This document shows, in pieces, positions 20,959-43,138 of a DNA stretch of 64,000 nt. Below the pieces are notes generated by a model, which worked only from the letters and a program-made list of their open reading frames with translations, did no database searches and was not told the DNA's origin. The stretch's first letter is position 1; the number at the start of each line of letters is the position of its first letter. The DNA comes from a virus, in the IMG/VR virus record IMGVR_UViG_3300032820_000001, positions 124,001-188,000 of that record; one strand, 5' to 3'. The position numbers and the translations under genes are program-made.

Positions 20959-21546
20959 TTATGATTTATTGAATTGTTCTGCTAATTTTTTAACAGACCA
21001 TTTAGAATTTCGTGAAAGCTTGGCATAGGTATCCAGTTCCTCTTTAAAGGTCAAAGGTCGATTTCTCACCCTAGTCATGAACTGATCTTCTTGGCCCATC
21101 TTCAAATCGCCAACCATGTGCCTATCCCCGTAGGGGGGAAAGTCGTTGGTTTCGCTCGTGCCAAAAAGGTAGGCACCTTCGGTGCCGACGGGAATAAAAA
21201 GAAAAGAATCCTGTCCGTACTCTTCAGATAAAGTAAACATCATCGTTTCGAACCCTGGATCGTCTGGGAGGTTTACGACAAAGAAACTCTCTTCTGATAC
21301 CTCCATGGCTGCGGGTTTTGTAAAGTTTTCTATATATGAGCCCTTCACAGCCGTTACTCCATATCCTCTTTCCAGAAGGCGAGCTTTCAGAATCCGATTG
21401 GTCTCATAATTTTCTTTTGTTTCCCTGTCTCCTCGGAAACTTGTAATTATGGCCGTATCGTGTTCGAGCATGTGTGAGTATACCCTCGAAAGTGAGGACA
21501 TCTCATTTAAGAATTTTTTCCAATTGTCGTGTATTTTGTTTGTCAT
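20959..21546 (-). CDS. DUF3293-like protein with a capsid-targeting-like N-terminus
   Basis: The first 15 residues, MTNKIHDNWKKFLNE, closely resemble the tag shared by six proteins at 36-40 kb and end in L-N-E, the cut-site type of T4-like prohead proteases. The body has NRILKARLLERGYGVTAVKG, then EESFFVV and a YGQDSFLFIP strand, a layout like DUF3293 domains (function unknown). The C-terminus is basic and helical. A GGAG ribosome site precedes the ATG. The gene lies between glutamine synthetase and the gp55 group. Packaging into the head is inferred only from the tag; the DUF3293 resemblance is from memory of the pattern. Confidence 0.55.
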   Translation of the reverse strand: MTNKIHDNWKKFLNEMSSLSRVYSHMLEHDTAIITSFRGDRETKENYETNRILKARLLERGYGVTAVKGSYIENFTKPAAMEVSEESFFVVNLPDDPGFETMMFTLSEEYGQDSFLFIPVGTEGAYLFGTSETNDFPPYGDRHMVGDLKMGQEDQFMTRVRNRPLTFKEELDTYAKLSRNSKWSVKKLAEQFNKS

Positions 21547-21555
21547 ATCGTTCTC

Positions 21556-22557
21556 CTACTTGAGAGTAGTTTTTAAAATTCTCCAACAAACCAAATATGG
21601 ATCGCAATTGGAGGCAGGGCGTCTATCTTCTAAATAGCCCTTCCCGTCTCTATTTACCTGCCATGGAATCCTAATTGATGCACCTCGATCTGAGACTCCT
21701 GCTCTGAAGGTATCAATGTCGCACGTTTCGTGGTCGCCTGTCAATCGTTTTTCGTTTCCGTTACCATACATAAAAATATGTTCCTTATGCATCTTCTCTA
21801 ATTTGTCAATTGCTTCATGAATAAATTTAATTCCATTCTCTTCTCGCATGGCTTTGGTGGAGAAATTTGTGTGGCAACCTGCGCCGTTCCAGTCGCCTTC
21901 GACGGGCTTAGGGTCGAGTGATACGGTCAATCCCTTTTTGGCACAAATCTTTTCCATAAGCCACCGGGCCACCCACAAATCATCAGATACACGAAGAGGG
22001 TCTGCAGCTCCGATTTGGTATTCCCATTGGCCAAGCATTACCTCAGAATTGATACCGCCTATTTTGATACCACACTCAATGCACATGTCCAGATGGTAAT
22101 GAGCAATTCCGTCGCCAATGTTTCTTCCGCAATAATAATCACCTTGAGGGGGAGGCTCGCCATTGTGCCACCCAAGAGGCTGGCTACCTTTATAGAGAGT
22201 ATATTCTTGTTCAATGCCAAACCAAGGATCGCTGGTATCGGATGCCGTAAAGGATTCTAAGACCTGTCGAGTGTTTGTTTTGTGGGGGTTGTCATCGACA
22301 TTCCAGACCTCACATAAAACTAAATAACCAGAATGATCCAGGGGGTTTTCATATACCCTAACTGGCTTTAAAACACAATCTGAGTCATTGCCTGCTGCCT
22401 GATTTGTTGAGGAACCATCGAAGCCCCAAATCGGGCAATCCTCCACCAAGGGGAAGTCTTCGAAGGTGCCGAAACTATCTTCAACAATTTTTGTTTTACT
22501 CCTCAGTGTCGGGGTTGGTTGTGTACCATCTGTCCATATATATTCTAATTTGGTCAT
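21556..22557 (-). CDS. glnII: Glutamine synthetase, GSII (eukaryotic-type) class
   Basis: The 333-residue protein is full length for GSII and has its motifs in order: WGFDGSSTNQAAGNDSDC near residue 45, EQEYTLYK, NSEVMLGQWEYQIG, GDWNGAGCHTNFSTKAMR, HETCDID, DRGASIRIPWQ and YLEDRRPASNCDPYLV. These form the metal, ATP and glutamate sites. The enzyme makes glutamine from glutamate, ammonia and ATP. The shorter GSII type is typical of eukaryotes and of some bacteria, and differs from the GSI type of most enterobacteria and cyanobacteria. It overlaps the HAD gene by 4 bases and opens the metabolic block. In a phage it would act as an auxiliary metabolic gene supplying amide nitrogen for nucleotides and amino sugars, which fits the adjacent sialate genes. 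Confidence 0.92.
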   Translation of the reverse strand: MTKLEYIWTDGTQPTPTLRSKTKIVEDSFGTFEDFPLVEDCPIWGFDGSSTNQAAGNDSDCVLKPVRVYENPLDHSGYLVLCEVWNVDDNPHKTNTRQVLESFTASDTSDPWFGIEQEYTLYKGSQPLGWHNGEPPPQGDYYCGRNIGDGIAHYHLDMCIECGIKIGGINSEVMLGQWEYQIGAADPLRVSDDLWVARWLMEKICAKKGLTVSLDPKPVEGDWNGAGCHTNFSTKAMREENGIKFIHEAIDKLEKMHKEHIFMYGNGNEKRLTGDHETCDIDTFRAGVSDRGASIRIPWQVNRDGKGYLEDRRPASNCDPYLVCWRILKTTLK

Positions 22558-27702: not shown

Positions 27703-28957
27703 TTCTCGCCTCTGCTTCGAGCTCCTCGCGGTGTGTGCAGTGATCCAAAACAATTGAAGAAAATTTATTATACATTTTTTCTGCCTCAAACTCTTCTTCA
27801 ACAAATTTCTTCAACTTCTTTGCCTTGTTGGAGGCCAACTGATAGTCCTTGTAAACATCTCTCATTTTGCTTTTTGCAGAGTTGTCCTTGGGATACGCCC
27901 ACATAGAATCTGGAGTTATAACCCCTTCCCAGACAGACTCCTTTTGAACTTTATGTAAGTCATAAGAAACTTTCCCAAAAAGACCTTTTCTTTTTGTCTT
28001 TCCTTTTTTATCCTTCTGGGGGGCGTAGAGAAAGTCCATATGGCCACTCCAATCTGTGGCGATAATTGGTAAGTCATTGTAGGTCGCTTCAAAGAGGGGG
28101 AGGCCGAAGCCTTCTCCGTGAGCCAACGATACCATACACTTAATTTTGTCATGACGATAGAGTGTAGTCATCTCTTCGTCTGAGAGTCTCCCGTGTAAAA
28201 GATAGATCTTACATTTTCTATCTGGATATTTCTTAACTAGGTTTTTTAATAGACTTTCGGTACCGAGCTTATCGTATGTTGATCCGCCCCTAATTGCGGT
28301 TTTTAAAACAAGACCTACATCCTCCTCATCCTTGAATTCCTCAACAAAGTTCAAAATTGTCTTTTCAAGATTCTTTCTCTGACCCCATAAAGCGACAGAT
28401 AAAAAATTAAAAGAAGTTTCAAATTCAAAATTGACCTTAGCAGGTTTATATTTTTTAACCGGATACCCAACAACTGATATTGGGGTTTCACAAACTAAGT
28501 CAGATACATGTTCACCACTGTTATTCGTTAGGGGATATTTGGTGTTTTCAAATCCGCGTTTTGCGTGTTCTGAAACTACAATTATCTTGTCCATTTCGTT
28601 GGCCTTTTGGAGCCAAATTGGGGCGATCTTGGTTGTTTCGATCCCTGCCGTTACACCGATATTTACTTTGGCCATCTTCTCAAATTCATTTGGAATTGTC
28701 ACCTGCAACGATATGTCAAAATCTAAGTTCTCTTTATTTTGGCTGATATAGTTGGCAGTTTTCCCGATAAGACCATCGATCCACTCTCGCTCTTCGGAAT
28801 CTTCAAATATCCATCCCGTTTTGCCCCAATTAAGGTTGTGAAAATATATATCAAAAATATCCTCTCTGGTGCGGAGAGCTCTCAAAACGAAACGTGCATG
28901 CTCTCCATACCCAGACGCGGTGAGGGCTGGGCCTTTTACAATTACTTTCTTTTTCAT
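27689..28957 (-). CDS. GT4-family glycosyltransferase
   Basis: The 422-residue protein has the GT-B layout. The N-terminal domain starts MKKKVIVKGPALTASGYGEH and the C-terminal domain has FLSVALWGQRKNLEKTILNF, IYLLHGRLSDEEMTTLYR and the donor-binding signature LAHGEGFGLPLFEATYNDLP with the E-x7-E pattern. It would transfer a nucleotide-activated sugar. It overlaps the following sialyltransferase-like gene by 14 bases and the second GT4 gene by 4. It may extend or modify host surface glycan or a virion glycan. Confidence 0.85.
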   Translation of the reverse strand: MKKKVIVKGPALTASGYGEHARFVLRALRTREDIFDIYFHNLNWGKTGWIFEDSEEREWIDGLIGKTANYISQNKENLDFDISLQVTIPNEFEKMAKVNIGVTAGIETTKIAPIWLQKANEMDKIIVVSEHAKRGFENTKYPLTNNSGEHVSDLVCETPISVVGYPVKKYKPAKVNFEFETSFNFLSVALWGQRKNLEKTILNFVEEFKDEEDVGLVLKTAIRGGSTYDKLGTESLLKNLVKKYPDRKCKIYLLHGRLSDEEMTTLYRHDKIKCMVSLAHGEGFGLPLFEATYNDLPIIATDWSGHMDFLYAPQKDKKGKTKRKGLFGKVSYDLHKVQKESVWEGVITPDSMWAYPKDNSAKSKMRDVYKDYQLASNKAKKLKKFVEEEFEAEKMYNKFSSIVLDHCTHREELEAEARNVFM

Positions 28958-30216
28958 ACAATCTCCTTCAGCGTCCAGTTATTATATTTTTTTCTTTCTG
29001 CCCAGGAGCCATAATCTACCATCGCCTTTTCAATCAGGTCAGCCCATGTCTTTTGGAAGTTCTCAAAATTATAATTCTTATCAACGTGTTCCTTGCCAAG
29101 TTGTCCAAGTTTCTTTCTCTCATCTTCTGACATTTCGAACATCTTTTGCATGGCATCCGTAACATCTTTTCCGTTGAGGCGATCTTCGAAGATCCAGGGA
29201 ATCTCCTGTGAGCCTATGATTGCTTTGGATGATGGTTCGATGCCGAAGCCGAAGAAGTTCTCGCCGTCCGTGACCTGCTCTTGGAGACCACCTGTCATCG
29301 TAGCAATGATTGGGGTTTCACATGCCAGTGATTCAAGAGTCGCCAAACCAAATCCTTCGGCATCGGAGACGTTTATCGTGCAATCGGCCATGTTATATAA
29401 GTGTGCCAAGTCTTGTGGTGGCAACTTTGCAGTCGAAAACATAACTTGCCCATTGGCCATGCCAAGTTCTTTTATAATAACCTCTAAGTCCTGACCATGT
29501 GGATCTTTGACGTCAGTGTGCATAATTAGGCATGTTTTGTCATCGCCAATGCGGTCTAACAAATCCTTATACCAATAGATGAGGGAGCCGCTTTGTTTTC
29601 TTCGAGCATTTCTATTGTTCCAAAAGAAGATAAACTTATCTTCTCCTTTGATTTTTTCCATTACTCTGTTTTTATATTTTATTATTTCATCGCCCGGAAG
29701 AGGCTTGAAGATCTCCTGGTTCACCGCGTGGGGAACGTAGTGGCATTCTACTTCGGGTGCCACCGTTCGAACTATATCGTCCGTGACCTTGGAGATTGTA
29801 GCAATTACATCATTAGATAAATAATGTTTTCTATTGAATGTCGGGTAAGGGTAATTATCCCAAACGTGATAATAAACCAAGGGGCACAGCGCACGAATCT
29901 CGTCATCTATTTCCCACAACCAACCCCAGAAGCGGGGATCGGTCATTATCCACACCATGTCTATCTTTTCAGTTCTTAAAAACGAACGAATTAGATCTGG
30001 TGTTCCGTAGCCGTCGACGGGATGAGTAATCCAATCTTCTCCATACTCTTCGGTTTTGGTGGGATTATAATTGCCGTGTTTAACGGCGCCTCCCAGAGAA
30101 ATAACTTTGTATTTTCCCGTTTTCATCAAAGCATCAATAACATACTTTGTCTGTGTTCCGACACCACTTGGTGAAAATGGGTGATCGGAAATTGTTAAAA
30201 TCTTTTTCTTTGTCAT
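28954..30216 (-). CDS. GT4-family glycosyltransferase
   Basis: The 420-residue protein (start ATG at 30216, with a GGGGAAA ribosome site; an earlier in-frame start at 30234 would overlap the nuclease gene) begins MTKKKILTISDHPFSPSGVG. The C-terminal domain has FIFFWNNRNARRKQSGSLIY, LAHLYNMADCTINVSDAEGF and GLATLESLACETPIIAT, the GT4 donor-site signature. The N-terminal domain holds the acceptor-side WDNYPYPTFNRKHY stretch. Distinct in sequence from the neighbouring GT4. Likely acts in the same glycan pathway as the NeuA/NeuB genes. Confidence 0.86.
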   Translation of the reverse strand: MTKKKILTISDHPFSPSGVGTQTKYVIDALMKTGKYKVISLGGAVKHGNYNPTKTEEYGEDWITHPVDGYGTPDLIRSFLRTEKIDMVWIMTDPRFWGWLWEIDDEIRALCPLVYYHVWDNYPYPTFNRKHYLSNDVIATISKVTDDIVRTVAPEVECHYVPHAVNQEIFKPLPGDEIIKYKNRVMEKIKGEDKFIFFWNNRNARRKQSGSLIYWYKDLLDRIGDDKTCLIMHTDVKDPHGQDLEVIIKELGMANGQVMFSTAKLPPQDLAHLYNMADCTINVSDAEGFGLATLESLACETPIIATMTGGLQEQVTDGENFFGFGIEPSSKAIIGSQEIPWIFEDRLNGKDVTDAMQKMFEMSEDERKKLGQLGKEHVDKNYNFENFQKTWADLIEKAMVDYGSWAERKKYNNWTLKEIV

Positions 30217-30224
30217 AGTTTCCC

Positions 30225-31007
30225 CTACGGGCAATGTGTCGTCCCCCTAAACTCACATCGATTACAGGACAGACGATTCTTAACATAGTTTTGCCTATCA
30301 ATATTATAAACCGATTGTTCCAAAAGTTTAAGGGCATTATTTGTCTTTTTTTCTCCCGATGTAACACGGAAGAATTCAACCCTATCTTTTTTGCCTGTTC
30401 TCTTGAGGAGAGCAAAATAAGTTTCAATATTTTCTTTTGGAATTCCTCGTTTTTCTGAAATGAAATGCTTGTAATAAGTCAGTTGATATGTCACCATTGG
30501 ATCTGTGCGTTTCCGCATGTCCCAACCCCAGCTGCAGGATTTCCAGTCAATGACATGATACTTTCCATCTGGGGTTTTGATGATACAATCCACATATCCC
30601 TTGAAGGAATACTGGTCATCTGTATCTAATCTTAATTTTTCATTTATCTCTTCCTCTGAAGAGACAAGATCAAACTCTCCAAAGTATTCTTTGAGGGCTG
30701 GTAATATGTGAGGGATTATTTCCCTCCCTTGCTCTAGGAACACTTTGGCATCATCCATCGATGGTGCAACATCGGGAGGAAGAATTTTCAACTCTTCGAC
30801 GAGCTGTTTTTTGAAATATTCCTCTGGTTCAAAGGATTTCTTAATTTGGTTGCTAATAAGCATAGCTTCACAAGTGTCGTGAATAGCTTTTCCAAAGGCG
30901 GTATAAACGTTTCCTTGGAAAACTTTTAATTTATCTATTCTCGTTAGCTTATGGTAAAAGGCACAAAATTTCCAGTCTTTAATAGCGGAAAATGATACGT
31001 GTGGCAA
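30225..31007 (-). CDS. PD-(D/E)XK nuclease, Cas4/RecB-like with iron-sulfur cysteines
   Basis: The 260-residue protein has the nuclease core GYVDCIIKTPDGKYHVIDWK, where Asp and D-x-K form the catalytic site, followed by YQLTYYKHFISE (the QxxxY motif). One Cys near the N-terminus (FCAFYHK) and three at the C-terminus (CNRCEFRGTTHC) give the four-Cys pattern of Cas4/AddB-type iron-sulfur nucleases. Such enzymes process DNA ends in recombination, and phage copies occur in T4-like marine phages. Two bases separate it from the upstream small gene. Confidence 0.85.
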   Translation of the reverse strand: MPHVSFSAIKDWKFCAFYHKLTRIDKLKVFQGNVYTAFGKAIHDTCEAMLISNQIKKSFEPEEYFKKQLVEELKILPPDVAPSMDDAKVFLEQGREIIPHILPALKEYFGEFDLVSSEEEINEKLRLDTDDQYSFKGYVDCIIKTPDGKYHVIDWKSCSWGWDMRKRTDPMVTYQLTYYKHFISEKRGIPKENIETYFALLKRTGKKDRVEFFRVTSGEKKTNNALKLLEQSVYNIDRQNYVKNRLSCNRCEFRGTTHCP

Positions 31008-33382: not shown

Positions 33383-33427
33383 CTGAATAAGTTTTGCTTT
33401 TTGTGTGGATTAATGGTAATTACTAAT

Positions 33428-34120
33428 ATGAAAAAACTATTCCTTATTCCACTGTTAAGTATTCTTTTCTTAGTCTCCAGCTGTGCCTTCACAAACCTTT
33501 TCACGAAAAACCTGCTAGATCAAAGAAGGAAGTCCTTTGTGGGTCTTACAAAATTTGTTTTCAACGCCGAAAAACAGATGGTTGGAATGTCCTCGGCATC
33601 GGGAGCAATTATAGGCCATCACAATAAAAAGACTTATATTTTAACTGCAAGACACTTCTGCGATGAAGAGAAAGACGGGCTTCTCGATGTAATTAACGCG
33701 CATACTCAAAGGGCCATAACGGTGGAAACCAAGGTAATCAAAAAAAGTAATGATATTGATGCATGCATCTTGGAATCAGATAAGCTACCAGAAAGGGCTA
33801 TCAGTATAGCTTTATCAAAACCAGAAATTGGTGAAAAGGTTTATAACCTCGCTGCACCGCAAGGTGTCTTTGGTGAAGATCTCATAATGCTCTTTGAGGG
33901 ATTTTACTCCGGCGTTTTGAAGGGGGATGGTTTTCATAATCCCGATGCTGATATATATTCTCTCCCGGCGAATCCAGGCAGCTCTGGATCTCCCATTATA
34001 AATTCAAGAGGTAAACTCGTGGGAATGGTTTGGGCAATCCATTCAAGATTCCACCACATCACTCTATCAGTCCCTTATGATAAGATGAAAAAATTTGTAA
34101 ATTCTGTTTTGCCCAAATAA
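33428..34120 (+). CDS. Trypsin-like serine protease lipoprotein
   Basis: From the ATG at 33428 the protein (230 residues) begins MKKLFLIPLLSILFLVSSCA, a lipoprotein signal with lipobox LVSSC (Cys19), so the mature enzyme would be lipid-anchored in the periplasm. The chymotrypsin-type triad is visible: His76 in LTARHFC, Asp109 or Asp111 in SNDIDACILE and Ser186 in PGSSGSPI. It is one of only two plus-strand genes, set between leftward blocks, followed after 15 bases by the J-domain gene. A periplasmic protease made in infected cells could alter the envelope, act in lysis or exclude other phages. The start at 33401 would put extra residues before the signal and is rejected. Confidence 0.82.
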   Translation: MKKLFLIPLLSILFLVSSCAFTNLFTKNLLDQRRKSFVGLTKFVFNAEKQMVGMSSASGAIIGHHNKKTYILTARHFCDEEKDGLLDVINAHTQRAITVETKVIKKSNDIDACILESDKLPERAISIALSKPEIGEKVYNLAAPQGVFGEDLIMLFEGFYSGVLKGDGFHNPDADIYSLPANPGSSGSPIINSRGKLVGMVWAIHSRFHHITLSVPYDKMKKFVNSVLPK

Positions 34121-36157: not shown

Positions 36158-37219
36158 TCAACTCTTTTTAACGCGGATTTTGATTTCTCTGACCGCTTTC
36201 TTAATAAAAGGGGGCTCAAGATTAAATTCGGAATTAGGTATTGCTTTAAAGATTTTAGCCAGACCCTTATCTCCCCCAATAGAGGGGTGATCTAATTGTG
36301 GCATATCAGGACGATCTGGTGCAGCACTCGAAGGTTGTGGGAGATTCCCCAGATTCGTTGCAACTTTATTTGCGATTTTATTTATAACCACCTTGGCATT
36401 CTCAGCCTCTTCGGGTGTAATATTTGCCCACTTTAAAATAACAGGATCTTTAGTTTTTCCTATCGTTGCGATCATCTCAGGATTTAAGAGATTACCAGGA
36501 GCTTTATCGTCGGTTCGTTCATCTATGTTAGCCAATATCATCTGTTTTATTTCTTCCGCGTCTTTGCCAATTATATCCGTCTTTGCGTCGCCGCCCTTTG
36601 AGGGGAATTCATCAGAAGGATTTGGATCAACAGCGGCAACTGCAAGTTGGGCAGCTGCAAGTTTTTGAGTTTCGTTGCCGGGGAAGCCCAAATTATTTAC
36701 TGTAATGCTCGCCGCTGGATTAATTGCATAAGCTCCTGACCATCGGTGGTGGCCATCAAGCACATACGGAAGAGAAACGGTAATGGGGCCATGGCCGCCA
36801 CTTTCGATGGCATTCTTTAAGGCTTTTGCAGAACCAAGGGGGAAGGCCACGGATTGCATTAAATCAATAAAAGCCTGAGTGGGGTTCATATCATCCAACT
36901 TTATGGGCTTTTCTGCAGACACAGGTATTTTATCATCCGTGGATGAGCCATCATATTTTGAGTGGGCCATTGCTAGAAATTTCCGGACTTTAGAATCTTT
37001 ACCTTGAGGAGAGTTCATGAATGCTCGGACGCCGGCTGGGCCATTGTTAAAGGCTTTCTCGATGGCAACCGCTAATTCTTCTCGCCCTAAAAGTTCGATT
37101 TCATCATCCATCTTTGCTTGACTTGATCCTGGGAGACTTACCTCTTTGAGTATTTTTGTGGGTTTTCCCTCTTCTTCGAAGTGGCGCCAGTTTTCCATAA
37201 TTAATTTCATGTTGCTCAT
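36158..37219 (-). CDS. Tagged protein with ParB/Srx-like DGHHR motif
   Basis: The 353-residue protein begins MSNMKLIMENWRHFEEE, the cassette tag in its most diverged form. Around residues 150-175 it has PYVLDGHHRWSGAYA, the motif of ParB/sulfiredoxin-like domains, which bind nucleotides (ParB uses CTP). The C-terminus has a Pro/Asp-rich linker and a basic tail ending IRVKKS. AGGAGA precedes the first ATG by 7 bases. It is the last gene of the cassette in the reading direction. The tag suggests head packaging; enzymatic role unknown. Confidence 0.6.
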   Translation of the reverse strand: MSNMKLIMENWRHFEEEGKPTKILKEVSLPGSSQAKMDDEIELLGREELAVAIEKAFNNGPAGVRAFMNSPQGKDSKVRKFLAMAHSKYDGSSTDDKIPVSAEKPIKLDDMNPTQAFIDLMQSVAFPLGSAKALKNAIESGGHGPITVSLPYVLDGHHRWSGAYAINPAASITVNNLGFPGNETQKLAAAQLAVAAVDPNPSDEFPSKGGDAKTDIIGKDAEEIKQMILANIDERTDDKAPGNLLNPEMIATIGKTKDPVILKWANITPEEAENAKVVINKIANKVATNLGNLPQPSSAAPDRPDMPQLDHPSIGGDKGLAKIFKAIPNSEFNLEPPFIKKAVREIKIRVKKS

Positions 37220-37286
37220 AATTAAGTCTCCTAAAATAAGAATCTAACAATACTAAATAGCATTCTAGCACAGTAAGTGCCTTTTT

Positions 37287-37598
37287 TTAATGATCGTGGC
37301 CACACTCATATTCTTTTTTATTTTTATCTCCCCAAAATTTGAGATATATCATCCAAAGAATGGGGACGGCAACTGGATGGAGGCACAAAAGCCAGCTTAC
37401 GGGGATTAAAGCGTAAAATGCTGGGAAGTATTGTCCTAACCAATAGAATAAGGCCGGGAATAAAATATCCTCTACAATCTCCCATCCAATAAGGATGACG
37501 AGGAGAGGCATTCCATAATCCACTATAATCTTTTTAAAATTGTCTCGTTTCCAGAAAGAGAATTTATATTTCACTTTCTCCACAAATTGTTTAAGCAC
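37287..37598 (-). CDS. Small membrane protein, 103 aa
   Basis: An amphipathic basic start (VEKVKYKFSFWKRDNFKK) is followed by two or three hydrophobic helices (YGMPLLVILIGWEIVEDILF, FPAFYALIPVSWLLCL, VAVPILWMIYLKFW) and a tail with CGHDH. Inner-membrane location is likely. It sits between two cassette genes but lacks the tag. Function unknown; a lysis or superinfection role would be a guess. Confidence 0.68.
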   Translation of the reverse strand: MLKQFVEKVKYKFSFWKRDNFKKIIVDYGMPLLVILIGWEIVEDILFPALFYWLGQYFPAFYALIPVSWLLCLHPVAVPILWMIYLKFWGDKNKKEYECGHDH

Positions 37599-37600
37599 TT

Positions 37601-38110
37601 TTAAATCTTTCTATCTATGATTGCTGATTCTGGCGGACTCACAAGAATTTCCGAAAAGGTCATGTAGGGATCATCACCTTCCCAATACGCTTCTGCAAAA
37701 CCCCTCGCTCGATCTTCGTCGCCACGCTCAAAGGATGTGACTGCCTCAGTCCAGTATTCGGAATTTGTTCTAAATAAATTGTATTCTCCCTGAAGTCTTA
37801 TCTCGTAAGTCTCACCTCCGCCACGGGCTGGATAACTACAAAAACTGCCTCCTTCTGGGCCGTCAAGGTTCTCACACAAATAAACACAATCTAAGCGGCT
37901 GGGGCGTTCTGGAAATTGTTCTTTTCTGACTTCCTCAAAAATCTCTTCTACTCTGCCGTTCCCTTGGGAGCGAGGATTGGATCGCGGGACGTGACTGGAG
38001 CCTTGACGGATTTTGCCGTCACCACTCCAAGCTCCTGTCGTCTGCCAATAATAGGTTTGACGGGGGCCTTCGTTTAAATAACTTTTCCACTGTTCCATTA
38101 ATAGTTTCAT
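37601..38110 (-). CDS. Tagged ADP-ribosyltransferase-like protein
   Basis: The 169-residue protein starts MKLLMEQWKSYLNE. The rest has RPSRLDCVYLCENLD, GGETYEIRLQG, ARGFAEAYW and MTFSEILVSPPESAIIDRKI. This sequence of an early Arg-Ser pair, short strands and a late S-E-I-L segment recalls the ADP-ribosyltransferase fold, as in T4 Alt and ModA, but the ExE motif is not clean. It is ATGA-coupled to the next gene. If packaged and injected it could modify host targets at once, as Alt does. Tentative. Confidence 0.5.
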   Translation of the reverse strand: MKLLMEQWKSYLNEGPRQTYYWQTTGAWSGDGKIRQGSSHVPRSNPRSQGNGRVEEIFEEVRKEQFPERPSRLDCVYLCENLDGPEGGSFCSYPARGGGETYEIRLQGEYNLFRTNSEYWTEAVTSFERGDEDRARGFAEAYWEGDDPYMTFSEILVSPPESAIIDRKI

Positions 38111-38490
38111 TTTAATTTCCGCGCCTTTTCGATGGCAACATTGAGCATTTGTTTAACGAGCTGTTTGGGAAAAGTTTTAATCACATTGCCGTCTTCGGCT
38201 TCTTCATAAAAACCCTTATCCACATAATAATCCATCGTATTTTCAAGCATTTCTGTGTAGTCATCAGTGATACGATTATCATCGTTACGCGAGACGAGCC
38301 TTTCAACCGCCGCTGGCATATTCGTGGTTAATAAATCTCTCATATCACTGTGGAGTGATTCTGAACCGATTCGCTCAAGTTCTTGGTGGTTGTCCCAATC
38401 GTCTTGTGGTAAACCAACGGGCTTAAGCCTAGATGCTTTTTCATCGTTCTCATTTATAAATTTTTTCCACTGTTCCATTAAAAGTTTCAC
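38107..38490 (-). CDS. Tagged protein of unknown function, 127 aa
   Basis: It starts with GTG: MKLLMEQWKKFINE, ending in the I-N-E cut-site type. The body is acidic and all-helical, with no motif I recognise (for example DMRDLLTTNMPAAVERLV and YYVDKGFYEEAEDG). It is coupled by overlaps (ATGA and GTGA) to both neighbours. Inclusion in the cassette is based on the shared tag. Confidence 0.65.
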   Translation of the reverse strand: MKLLMEQWKKFINENDEKASRLKPVGLPQDDWDNHQELERIGSESLHSDMRDLLTTNMPAAVERLVSRNDDNRITDDYTEMLENTMDYYVDKGFYEEAEDGNVIKTFPKQLVKQMLNVAIEKARKLK

Positions 38491-39119
38491 TCTGCGTCCT
38501 CCTTAACAAGTTCTTTATCAACAATTTTATATCCGTTGACAACGCCGACATTGTAATAATCAAATCCGTCCAGTAAGCAAATCTTTTGTTCCTGAAATTC
38601 TCCGGTTGCTTCTTTCGCGCAGACCTGTCCGACGATTTCTGTAAATAGGGCGGGTGCGGCTTCTGGAGGTAATGTTTTTAAATGAACATTGTAGGCTTTT
38701 AATTCTCCGGCCAAACCGAACGGTGTTCCTGTCGAACCGAAAGCTTGAATGTGAGACATATAATCATGGATGGCTCGGAACTTTGCATTTGTAATTTCAT
38801 CGAATAAAGCATGATCTGCATCGATTGTTGCAACCTTCATTATTCCGTTCTCCTCGACATCTCGACGGATATCCGCATCGGTTTCGTAGGGGTGGTAATC
38901 AACAAATTGTACTTCGACTCTCGATTGAATTTGTTTGAACATCTTTTCGATGAATGGAACGGTGGCCTCAAAAGATGAAACAGCTCTAGGCTCAAAACTT
39001 GGTGCAGCCATGTAAGCCTTTGCAACCAAGTCACGATACAAGTCCCAGCCATTTGGCCCAGGCTTGAGCATGAGCTTTTCGTTCAAAAATCCTCGCCAGT
39101 TTTCCATTAGGAGTTTCAT
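38487..39119 (-). CDS. Tagged protein of unknown function, 210 aa
   Basis: It starts MKLLMENWRGFLNE. The body includes VEVQFVDYHPYETDADIR, MKVATIDADHALFDEITNAK, FRAIHDYMSHIQAFGSTGTP and KICLLDGFDYYNVGVVNGYK. The His-Asp-Tyr-x2-His segment could bind metal, but the family is unknown to me. It is ATGA-coupled to the 2H gene upstream and GTGA-coupled downstream. The tag predicts packaging in the head. Confidence 0.65.
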   Translation of the reverse strand: MKLLMENWRGFLNEKLMLKPGPNGWDLYRDLVAKAYMAAPSFEPRAVSSFEATVPFIEKMFKQIQSRVEVQFVDYHPYETDADIRRDVEENGIMKVATIDADHALFDEITNAKFRAIHDYMSHIQAFGSTGTPFGLAGELKAYNVHLKTLPPEAAPALFTEIVGQVCAKEATGEFQEQKICLLDGFDYYNVGVVNGYKIVDKELVKEDAE

Positions 39120-39634
39120 TTTACACTGTCTCCTGGATTTCCCGTAAGGTTGGCTAATGAAACATGAAATATGCGCTCTGGTTCGGGGTTGGGAGAACCG
39201 CCGATCATTTCCATTATAAGATTAACATAATCTCTCATATCTTGCTGGTTCGCAACATTTGCCACCCACGACATTCTCTGGAGATCTTCAGCCACCTTCA
39301 TTTGGGGTGGTTCACTCAAATCCAGTTGAACTGGGGGTGGTTCAGGAAGCTTGTTTTCTTTGCCCATTTGTTTGAGTAATTTTTTATAAGGTTTTAAAAC
39401 ACTCTGGTGGGCTAGCGTCACATGAAAATTTTCAGGTGTCAGCGGTACAGGAGAGGCTGACGATCCGGGTTTCCAGGGAATTTCAACCTTCTCCGGTAAT
39501 TTATTTAATGCTTCCTGTGCCTGGGAGACAATATCTGACGAGGGCATTAATTTAAGGATGCCGCTAAACTTAACTTTGGGCTGCCCCTCTTCTTCTGTCA
39601 TATATTCTCGCCAGTTTTCCATTAATAATTTCAT
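39116..39634 (-). CDS. Tagged 2H phosphoesterase (LigT/Acb1-like)
   Basis: The 172-residue protein starts MKLLMENWREYMTE. It has the two 2H motifs: FHVTLAH (His71, Thr73) and FHVSLANLTG (His157, Ser159). 2H enzymes cut 2',5' or 2',3'-cyclic phosphodiester bonds. T4 Acb1 (gene 57B) is a 2H enzyme that destroys cyclic oligonucleotides made by CBASS defence. Others act on RNA ends. The combination of a capsid-type tag with a 2H enzyme suggests a protein delivered with the DNA. ATGA overlaps on both sides. Confidence 0.68.
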   Translation of the reverse strand: MKLLMENWREYMTEEEGQPKVKFSGILKLMPSSDIVSQAQEALNKLPEKVEIPWKPGSSASPVPLTPENFHVTLAHQSVLKPYKKLLKQMGKENKLPEPPPVQLDLSEPPQMKVAEDLQRMSWVANVANQQDMRDYVNLIMEMIGGSPNPEPERIFHVSLANLTGNPGDSVK

Positions 39635-40326
39635 GCCTCTAAACTCCTTAAAAAATCGACGGTGCTAGAGATATTATCTGCAGAGTGATGTATAGCTTCT
39701 CCTCCGGCTTGTTCAAATTGATCTATATATTTGGTGCGGTCATCAATTAAAATAGCTCGTCCTCCTGCGTCGATGATTCCCAGGTTCTGGAGGGCAGCGC
39801 CTTTTTCACCGGTAATAATTATATTATCGATTTCTGGAAAGTGATGAGATAACCATTCTTTCTTTCCTTCCGCCGAAGCATCATCAACTGGCGATGTCAA
39901 CACATGTACATTTCCCAGACCTTGGGCCAAGTCCACCATTTCTTTCGCTCCGGGAAGGATTCCCATATCAGCCCACACTTGAGAATCGTTGGAAATAAGG
40001 GAAAACAAATAATCACTAATTCTCTTTTCCACTTTGGTTCTTTCTTGGCCTGCATCTTTTCTGGCTGTCATCTCTTCTAGTTCTTTGGGAGTTATTGGTG
40101 TAGTTCTTCCTTCTTCTTCCATCACCTTCTGGAGTCTTCTCAGTGCTTTTCGTTTGGATTTGGATTCGGCATAAAACTCATCTGGATTTTTATCTATTGT
40201 GCTGTTAATTAATTCTGCAACTTTGCCAGCGAAATCAACTAACACACCATCCATATCAAAAAAGATATTAACGCCTTCGGTATCTTCATTCAAATACTGT
40301 CGCCAATTTTCCATTAAAAGTCTCAT
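39631..40326 (-). CDS. Tagged HAD-family 5'-nucleotidase-like protein
   Basis: The 231-residue protein starts MRLLMENWRQYLNE. It has the HAD motif NIFFDMDGVLVDF (Asp24 and Asp26), HVLTSPVDD (motif II), KGAALQ and ILIDDRTKYI (motif IV Asp-Asp), a pattern close to deoxyribonucleotidases of the NT5C kind. These remove phosphate from nucleoside monophosphates. The insert of about 60 charged residues after motif I would be the cap. It is the first tagged gene in the reading direction and has an upstream ribosome site; the 16-bp palindrome at 40354 lies before it. Confidence 0.75.
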   Translation of the reverse strand: MRLLMENWRQYLNEDTEGVNIFFDMDGVLVDFAGKVAELINSTIDKNPDEFYAESKSKRKALRRLQKVMEEEGRTTPITPKELEEMTARKDAGQERTKVEKRISDYLFSLISNDSQVWADMGILPGAKEMVDLAQGLGNVHVLTSPVDDASAEGKKEWLSHHFPEIDNIIITGEKGAALQNLGIIDAGGRAILIDDRTKYIDQFEQAGGEAIHHSADNISSTVDFLRSLEA

Positions 40327-40783: not shown

Positions 40784-43138
40784 TTATTCCAAAGCTAGTG
40801 CAAAAACTTCCTCCACCGTTTCGGGAAAGAAGAATTCAACCTCTTCTTTGATTTTATCTGGAACATCTTTCATATCCTTCTCATTTTTTGGAGGAAGGAG
40901 TATTCTTTTGATTCCTAAGCGGTGAGCAGCAATAACTTTCTCTTTGATTCCGCCCACAGGCAGCACCAGACCGCGCAGGCTCGTTTCTCCGGTCATTGCA
41001 GTGTCCGAGCGTACCTTCTTGTCACTTAATAGCGAAACGAGTGCTGTGCTTATTGCAATGCCTGCTGAGGGGCCGTCCTTTGGGGTTGCCCCAGCTGGGA
41101 AATGGATATGGAGATCTGTTTCTTCTAAAAAGTTCTTGTTCTCTTCTTTTGTGAGGCCAAGAGCAATTGCTTTGGATCGAATTAAACTTACTGCAGTCTT
41201 TGCAGATTCGGTCATGACGTCGCCAATCTTACCAGTTAAAGTTAAATTTCCTTTGCCGGGCATTTTGGTGGCTTCGATATATAATATATCTCCCCCGGAA
41301 GCAGTCCAAGCTAAACCAGTTGAAACACCAGGATTTCTTGCTCTTGTATCGGGCTCAACGTCAAATTTTTCTGGACCAAGAAATGTATCAAGATTATAAG
41401 TATTTATAATTTTAATGATGTGTTGCGGCTGTTCTTTTTCTTGTTCCTTGGCAACCAATGCCGCAACATAACGGCATACTTTGGCAATTTGTCTTTCAAG
41501 CCCCCGGACTCCAGCCTCTCTGGTATATTGCAAAATAATTTTATTAAGGGCGCCCGGTTTAATGATGATATTAGTATCAGAGAGTCCATTCTTTTTTATT
41601 TGTTTTGGGACAAGATGTTTGGTTGCAATATTTTCCTTTTCTTCGTATGTATATCCAGATAATTCTATAATTTCCATTCGATCACGAAGAGGCCCAGATA
41701 TTGTTCTGAGACTATTGGCTGTTGCAATAAAAAGGCAATTTGAAAGATCAATTGGAATATCAAGGTAGTGATCCATAAATTCATTGTTCTGCTCTGGATC
41801 AAGAACCTCTAGCATCGCTGATGCTGGATCTCCTTTATAATCTTTGCTCATCTTATCAATCTCATCGAGTAAAAAGAGTGGGTTGTTGACGCCAATATTT
41901 ATCATCGACTTTACTATTTTTCCTGGCATGGCGCCGATATAAGTTTTTCGATGGCCTCTAATTTCTGATTCATCGCCGACGCCGCCGAGAGAAACTCTTT
42001 TCATTTTGCGACCTAAAGCTTGGGCAATTGATTTTCCTAGCGAAGTTTTGCCAACTCCAGGTGGCCCAACCAAACAAAGGATTGGCCCTTTCATATCGTC
42101 CTTTAATTTACGGACAGCAAGATATTCAATAATTCTATCCTTAACGTCGTCAAGGCCATGGTGGTCATCGTCAAGTTGTTTTTTCACATCTGTCAATTTT
42201 AGACTATCGCGGGTATAAACATCCCAGGGAAAATCTAAAATAGTTTCAAGATAATTTAGAGAAACATTATATTCCGCCTGATTTGGCTGCATATTACGCA
42301 TCCTCTTAATTTCTTTCGTGGCTGTCTTAACAACCTCATCAGGTAAATCAATGTTTTTCATCTTTTCCTTGAAAACATTTAACTCATCATTTTCTTCGGC
42401 GCCTTCGCCAAGCTCTTGATTAATTGCTCTGAGTTGTTGGCGCAAATAATATTCTCTTTGATTCCTTGAAATTTCTTCTTTAACTGATGTATTAATTTTA
42501 TCTGAGAGGACGAGCATTTCGTGCTTTCTTCCTAAAATTTCCATGGCCTTTATAACTCTTTGGCTTACATCATATGTTTCCAGTACTGCTTGTCTTTCCT
42601 CAACCGCTTCACCTAAGTTTCCTGCTACCACGTCGGCCAAGACCCCAGGATCTTCGATGGTATCAATAAAGTTCTTGACGCTTGAAGGAATTTCAGGGAG
42701 AGCAGAAATAATATCGAAAGAAGTTTCTCTTAAAGTTTGAAATAGTAATTGAAGTTCACTTGAATTCGATGAAGGTGGAATTTCAGGATATTCTACTGCT
42801 GCAGTAAAGAACGGTTCTGAGGTATTCATTTCACTATATTCAATTCTTCTTATTCCCTCGATAATTACATTATAATTACCATCGGAGGTTTTAGAAAATT
42901 TTATAATTTTCGCTAACGTTCCAACTTTATATAAATCTAAATCAATTGGTTCTTCAACCTCTACGTCTTTTTGAGCCACGACGCCAAATTCAGTTCCCGT
43001 CTTGATAACTGCATTGATTAATTTTAAAGATTTCTCTCGACCAATTAAAAGAGGCATAACTGTGCCAGGAAAGAACACTGCATTTTTTAAAGGCAGGATA
43101 GGTATTAAATTGTCTTTTCCTTTATTTATTCCAAACAA
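40784..43138 (-). CDS. lon: Full-length Lon protease (ATP-dependent)
   Basis: The 784-residue protein has all Lon parts: N-terminal domain (IPILPLKNAVFFPGTVMPLL), a coiled region, AAA+ module with Walker A GPPGVGKTS (about 358-366), Walker B FLLDEIDK (about 422-429), TANSLRTI sensor and RDRMEII arginine finger, and the protease domain with Ser691 in KDGPSAGIAIST and Lys732 in LPVGGIKEK. It is complete and looks active. Lon removes damaged or regulatory proteins. It is transcribed with the 121-aa gene from a promoter at 43.7 kb. Full-length Lon is unusual in phages; T4 instead makes a Lon inhibitor (PinA). Confidence 0.95.
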   Translation of the reverse strand: MFGINKGKDNLIPILPLKNAVFFPGTVMPLLIGREKSLKLINAVIKTGTEFGVVAQKDVEVEEPIDLDLYKVGTLAKIIKFSKTSDGNYNVIIEGIRRIEYSEMNTSEPFFTAAVEYPEIPPSSNSSELQLLFQTLRETSFDIISALPEIPSSVKNFIDTIEDPGVLADVVAGNLGEAVEERQAVLETYDVSQRVIKAMEILGRKHEMLVLSDKINTSVKEEISRNQREYYLRQQLRAINQELGEGAEENDELNVFKEKMKNIDLPDEVVKTATKEIKRMRNMQPNQAEYNVSLNYLETILDFPWDVYTRDSLKLTDVKKQLDDDHHGLDDVKDRIIEYLAVRKLKDDMKGPILCLVGPPGVGKTSLGKSIAQALGRKMKRVSLGGVGDESEIRGHRKTYIGAMPGKIVKSMINIGVNNPLFLLDEIDKMSKDYKGDPASAMLEVLDPEQNNEFMDHYLDIPIDLSNCLFIATANSLRTISGPLRDRMEIIELSGYTYEEKENIATKHLVPKQIKKNGLSDTNIIIKPGALNKIILQYTREAGVRGLERQIAKVCRYVAALVAKEQEKEQPQHIIKIINTYNLDTFLGPEKFDVEPDTRARNPGVSTGLAWTASGGDILYIEATKMPGKGNLTLTGKIGDVMTESAKTAVSLIRSKAIALGLTKEENKNFLEETDLHIHFPAGATPKDGPSAGIAISTALVSLLSDKKVRSDTAMTGETSLRGLVLPVGGIKEKVIAAHRLGIKRILLPPKNEKDMKDVPDKIKEEVEFFFPETVEEVFALALE

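Follow-up and report, generated by a model that had tools for sequence, protein, structure and literature searches.

A shared N-terminal leader on unrelated phage proteins, a putative T4-type capsid-targeting sequence with a large cargo set

The gene cassette described here lies on the minus strand at positions 36158-40326 of a 64,000-nucleotide stretch of viral DNA (the window), which covers positions 124001-188000 of the 191,133-base IMG/VR virus record IMGVR_UViG_3300032820_000001; coordinates with the prefix G000:C1 are those of the record. Six open reading frames (ORFs) in the cassette begin with a similar N-terminus, the tag (Table 1). The six 14-residue N-termini score 43-65 against one another with BLOSUM62, whereas 2,080 pairs of other N-termini from the window reach at most 26, and the bodies that follow, compared pairwise, have no significant similarity. 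A first-pass annotation, made from the sequence alone, had described just such a set of minus-strand proteins with a common tag and unrelated bodies, and had seen that five of the genes (37601-40326) are coupled, which they are via four 4-base overlaps, three ATGA and one GTGA. It placed all six ORFs correctly, except that 37219 is the probable start of the gene at 36158 (MSNMKLIMENW, with AGGAG upstream), three residues earlier and with a 17-residue leader. An untagged ORF separates this gene from the chain of five. The annotation missed a seventh gene with a variant of the tag. Pattern searches of the 191-kb record found no tag of the exact type beyond those in Table 1.

The tag, hereafter the W-tag, has the consensus M-K-L-L-M-E-N-W-R-x-[YF]-L-x-E and is spread clade-wide. 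A 26-base degenerate pattern for its start matched at least 119 IMG/VR stretches; in bacterial and archaeal genomes (257 billion bases) it matched 13 places, one of them a real tagged cassette. This cassette, with several tagged genes, is on a 15.9-kb contig (PBSV01000031.1; L145) of an Opitutia metagenome-assembled genome and is most likely from a phage contig binned with a bacterial genome. In a relaxed scan of the retrieved loci, 213 proteins carried the tag (172 once near copies were set aside), with about 103 body families. In 28 tagged records, including two that overlap (G003 and G004), the relaxed pattern matched 89 times compared with once in the reversed control. Within any record the matches are on one strand only, mostly tightly clustered, and at most eight in number. 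In an alignment on the tryptophan, positions M1 to E14 are highly conserved and conservation falls off immediately beyond them, the relative entropy being 2.58 bits at E14 and then 0.53, 0.31 and about 0.1. Among cultured phages the nearest two, immuto and Mel-JY01, lack the W-tag and have their own leaders instead. A literature search for the tag sequence found none, with preprints and most subscription journals outside its scope, so that literature novelty is not proven.

A start common to many genes, in a cassette with 4-base overlaps, could also be a DNA element, that is, a shared 5' sequence that aids cassette exchange or translation initiation and encodes a peptide without function. Among the cassette genes, the DNA identity of the tag is only 71% on average (24-27% directly downstream), and the relatives' tags use every common Leu and Arg codon for the same residues, so that the conservation is at the protein level and selection acts on the peptide. 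In a sister clade, a second tag with another sequence fills the same role, as described below. The recombination-element and translation-leader readings were both rejected on codon diversity, and we give them almost no credence.

The internal proteins (IPs) and Alt of phage T4 carry a short N-terminal capsid-targeting sequence (CTS), which gp21 removes at an L/I-x-E site. The IPIII tag is MKTYQEFIAE with the key residues Y4, F7, I8 and E10, and amber suppression assigned targeting to residues 4 and 7 and processing to residues 8 and 10 (PMC9026906). W8, F/Y11, L12 and E14 of the W-tag have a spacing identical to that of these four residues. In 143 of the 172 tagged proteins the first 20 residues contain the core [FYW]xx[FYH][LIVM]xE, compared with only 6 of 1,885 body windows, and tags with one inserted residue still keep the motif (YLLTE, FIIKE, YILKE, FLLKE). 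Of 19 tags that lack the motif at its normal position, 16 are followed by an [LI]xE no more than 24 residues on, compared with 36 of the 153 tags that do have it there (Fisher p=3.5e-7); the 19 are non-redundant, yet a few are related, so the independent cases are somewhat fewer. On this comparison, the [LI]xE site at the leader/body boundary is kept by selection, via compensation. The first-pass annotation had taken the tags of the cassette to end in [LI]xE-like sites, which is correct for most of them. Tagged protein 1 ends in E-E-E (WRHFEEE), with an ILKE that ends nine residues further on, and tagged protein 5 in the non-canonical M-T-E, which makes the cut site marginal in two of the seven tagged proteins of the window; the homolog of protein 5 in locus L025 has the leader MKHLMREWRKFLSE.

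The tag is a mildly amphipathic helix that could dock anywhere, and it might instead be a docking peptide by which these enzymes are brought together during infection on some other structure (the tail, a phage-made complex or a membrane) with neither cleavage nor packaging. Such a peptide is not predicted to have a terminal [LI]xE with compensation downstream, or an [LI]xE at the body boundary of unrelated leaders, and we consider it unlikely.

Tags are gained, lost and swapped on one and the same body. The orthologs of the S-adenosylmethionine (SAM) lyase in unrelated gp21 phages have lineage-specific leaders, nearly all of which end in [LI]xE just before the body, and these leaders stop at one common place, before the conserved S-S-L-S-R. 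With a slash at the junction, the sequences are FLNE/MSSLSR in the window, FLSE/MSSLSR in L206, LLTE/SSLSR in L207 and FINE/SGFSR in L116; MQFKQYILGE/SSLSR in Mel-JY01, ALSE/SSLSR in Slicko01 and KFNE/SSLAR in CP220; and ELNE/KSLNR and TINE/SSINR in the Lak phages C1 and B5. The S77 protease (gp21) is present in immuto, Mel-JY01, Slicko01, CP220 and two Lak phages. The HAD nucleotidase is tagged in the window, L037 and L066 and untagged in L070, L095 and L131, where it starts close to the catalytic D-M-D-G. A CPPATQ-type body is preceded by the W-tag in L036 and by the leader FDLKKFITE in L257, and the homolog of tagged protein 1 in cultured phage Mel-JY01 has the leader MGILKQLLKE.

The record itself encodes a gp21-type S77 prohead protease and a T4-like gp23 (Table 1) as well as a gp20-type portal and a large terminase. 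The first-pass annotation had held that its reading would fall if the genome had no prohead protease, which is excluded by the S77 gene in the same record. More broadly, gp21 was found in 9/9 W-tag records of at least 150 kb and less often in shorter fragments, as fragments would show. The N-terminus of the protease is MENLMSKFLLTE, and the N-terminal region of gp23 has LLRE/ASSMAAG at about the position of FLTE/AEIGG in T4 gp23 in a by-eye comparison. A Glu-rich gene directly upstream of gp23 (G000:C1:79389-80468) fits the gp22 scaffold by position and composition only. We also observed that the gp23 propeptides of this record, immuto, Mel-JY01 and T4 share a stretch ([KQ]WxxxGLLEG / NKWKPLLEGE) similar to the core of the tag; one scaffold site may serve for the docking of both the tag and the gp23 propeptide. 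A gene for a bS21-like ribosomal protein (G000:C1:95376-95608) lies a few genes from gp21, and in the annotation of Microcystis phage Mel-JY01 such a gene is likewise close to the protease.

When N-termini common to several proteins were searched for blind, the T4 IPII/IPIII tag was recovered as the positive control, and a new tag, MxNFDLKKFLVENKLTxNSKxLxE, came up in the cultured Flavobacterium phage immuto (MW353175), the nearest cultured relative by gp21 and terminase. The immuto-type tag occurs in 81 stretches of IMG/VR, where it heads 60 non-redundant bodies that fall into about 45 families (L210-L289); conservation of the tag ends around an [LI]xE-like position, and gp21 was found in 6/6 records of at least 150 kb. 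It is likely that each clade of gp21-bearing phages has its own capsid-targeting dialect (the W-tag, the NFDLKKFLVEN-tag of immuto, YQEFIAE of T4), that cargo genes pass from one clade to another by taking on the tag in use there, and that the tags mark well over a hundred injected-effector families, mostly of unknown function, which can be listed from sequence alone. One tagged member in immuto, beside the terminase gene, is annotated as a cob(I)alamin adenosyltransferase.

The capsid-targeting reading, which the first-pass annotation had proposed, is well supported at the level of sequence by gp21, the IPIII-like core and the [LI]xE site kept by compensation. Several points weigh against it. 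Nothing in the T4 tag of 10 residues corresponds to the conserved MKLLMEN half, three of the 19 non-canonical tags have no nearby [LI]xE, and a search of the cassette for a T4-type late promoter (TATAAATA) gave nothing clear. The co-occurrence with gp21 is weak when taken alone. Taking the whole reading together, we find it highly probable that the leader is a CTS of a T4-like phage, processed by gp21, and that the enzymes are injected with the DNA to act against defence.

We infer a path from scaffold docking through cleavage, packaging and injection to an anti-defence role. During assembly, the aromatic core (W8, F/Y11) would dock the protein on the prohead scaffold core, and the gp21-type protease would cut after E14 or a nearby [LI]xE, which would free the body inside the head. 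The freed bodies, small enzymes with nucleotides, RNA, SAM, DNA or proteins as targets, would be injected along with the DNA and, ahead of phage gene expression, would oppose the defences of the host and reprogram it. Since the tag would be a modular add-on, cargo genes could build up in cassettes and turn over fast.

Table 1 Tagged genes, the untagged ORF among them and head genes (window positions, or record positions where prefixed G000:C1)
Feature	Position	Strand	Length (residues)	Leader	Body or match
Seventh tagged protein	20959..21546	-	195	MTNKIHDNWKKFLNE (variant tag)	SAM-lyase family, PF23780 1.6e-11
Tagged protein 1	36158..37219	-	353	MSNMKLIMENWRHFEEEGKPTKILKE	ParB/Srx-like body, DGHHRW motif
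Untagged ORF within cassette	37287..37598	-	103		membrane-like; not cargo
Tagged protein 2	37601..38110	-	169	MKLLMEQWKSYLNE	DUF2441-type body
Tagged protein 3	38107..38490	-	127 (GTG start)	MKLLMEQWKKFINE	orphan body
Tagged protein 4	38487..39119	-	210	MKLLMENWRGFLNE	phrog_3170 domain
Tagged protein 5	39116..39634	-	172	MKLLMENWREYMTE	two HxTL/HxSL motifs, 2H-like, weak
Tagged protein 6	39631..40326	-	231	MRLLMENWRQYLNE	HAD 5'(3')-deoxyribonucleotidase
gp23 major capsid protein, T4-like	G000:C1:77669-79426				PF07068 E 2e-58
gp21-type S77 prohead protease	G000:C1:97049-97678				PF03420 E 6e-33; phrog_207 E 7e-56

The labels that the first-pass annotation gave to the bodies of the cassette fared unequally. 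The HAD nucleotidase (protein 6) is solid, with PF06941 at 2.6e-10 and phrog_2643 at 1.6e-17, and ParB-like is reasonable for protein 1, which matches phrog_2859 (9e-5) and, weakly, the ParB-like phrog_1033 (0.078) and has tagged homologs in L079, L111, L118 and L073. Protein 5 is 2H-like at the motif level only (HVTLAH and HVSLAN; PF13563 only at E 0.1). For protein 2, ADP-ribosyltransferase (ART)-like is unconfirmed: the match is to DUF2441 only (PF10386 3e-6, phrog_5663 1e-11; tagged homolog in L061), and the AlphaFold model, with a predicted local distance difference test score of 51 from a two-sequence alignment, is too poor for judging the ART claim. Protein 4 matches phrog_3170 (3e-19), a domain that large virion proteins and polyvalent-type proteins also contain, and in BFVD the predicted fold of protein 4 is matched by domains from large proteins of the polyvalent and head-morphogenesis kinds; in the AlphaFold model the tag is a detached helix of low confidence, and a fold search of the model against PDB gave no match. 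Its body is homologous to a domain of Rhodococcus phage E3 gp205, an 858-residue protein without a tag, in a phage with no S77 protease. In its database record gp205 is a 'structural protein'. This homology independently supports that the body can be virion-delivered. IMG/VR relatives of protein 3 were not found at the sensitivity used, and Pfam and PHROG profile searches gave no significant family for the untagged ORF. There were no sequence matches in PDB for the SAM-lyase or 2H-like bodies and no Rfam match in the cassette region.

When one representative per body family was searched, most had no match; those that did include Zeta_toxin/AAA_33 kinases, a tRNA-ligase phosphodiesterase domain, Nudix, NT5C/HAD, protein kinase, GNAT acetyltransferase, ParB-like and DUF2441. 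SAM lyase is also among the body families of the W-tag. Few tagged proteins matched PADLOC defence families, mostly weakly. A SAM lyase would remove the cofactor of restriction and BREX methyltransferases, and its delivery at entry would fit a first-response counter-defence role. The T4 internal proteins counter first-response defences such as GmrSD (PMC9391042, PMC3012670). Loss of T4 IPIII also slows head assembly (PMC9026906), and the tagged proteins could in principle be packed as scaffold or head-assembly helpers instead of injected effectors. The bodies are enzymes, however (nucleotidase, SAM lyase, zeta-type kinases, Nudix, GNAT, kinase), and they vary between phages, unlike assembly factors, which makes a helper role very unlikely.

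By all features testable here, the assignment of the tag system to the T4 CTS, as a new dialect whose cargo set is far larger, is well supported. The two are alike in the short N-terminal leader on unrelated bodies (IPI, IPII, IPIII and Alt in T4), in the aromatic-x-x-aromatic-[LI]-x-E core and in the gp21-type protease and gp23 in the genome. They differ in that the T4 CTS has 10 residues while the W-tag has 14, with the conserved MKLLMEN half and W replacing Y. T4 has three IPs plus Alt, whereas W-tag phages have as many as eight tagged genes in one record and more than 100 body families, among them many recognisable enzymes, unlike the T4 IPs. The internal-protein loci of T-even phages have variable cargo behind a conserved CTS (PMC3012670) and are thus alike in a conserved CTS with fast-changing cargo, but the W-tag belongs to another phage clade, is another CTS dialect and has a much larger cargo repertoire. 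Polyvalent proteins, which phages inject (PMC5512222), have domains in common with the W-tag cargo (ParB-like; phrog_3170) and probably also the purpose. While a polyvalent protein is one huge chain, the W-tag domains are separate small proteins, each with its own head tag. We considered membership among the polyvalent proteins, with several effector domains per large polypeptide, and rejected it: the tagged proteins of the cassette have 127-353 residues and at most one recognisable domain each. The ejection proteins of the giant phages SPN3US and phiKZ are cleaved by the prohead protease (PMC5694885, PMC9026906). They resemble the predicted W-tag cargo in head packing and in the cut after Glu by a gp21 relative, but their lineages are distant from the W-tag phages. 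We know of no single short shared tag described for them.

A full-length Lon protease (PF05362 E 2e-78; 40784-43138, minus strand) adjoins the cassette on the upstream side and could act in host takeover. The window also encodes a trypsin-like serine peptidase with a lipoprotein-like signal (PF13365 E 2.5e-14; 33401-34120), which is on the plus strand, opposite to most of its neighbours. On the minus strand are a PIN-PhoH fusion protein (PF13638 and PF02562; 32010-33320), a group 1 glycosyltransferase (28954-30234) and a short glutamine-synthetase-like protein (21556-22557) that adjoins the SAM-lyase gene.

Injected phage proteins have long been hard to list, since the bodies of internal proteins are not homologous to one another and virion proteomics is required to find them. 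With a sequence-readable tag that has a built-in cleavage site, finding them would become a search, and the two dialects lead to roughly 150 body families. The SAM lyases, nucleotidases, zeta-type kinases and ParB-like proteins would be natural candidates for first-minute counter-defence, and the tags may be usable as ready-made addresses for loading proteins into phage heads.

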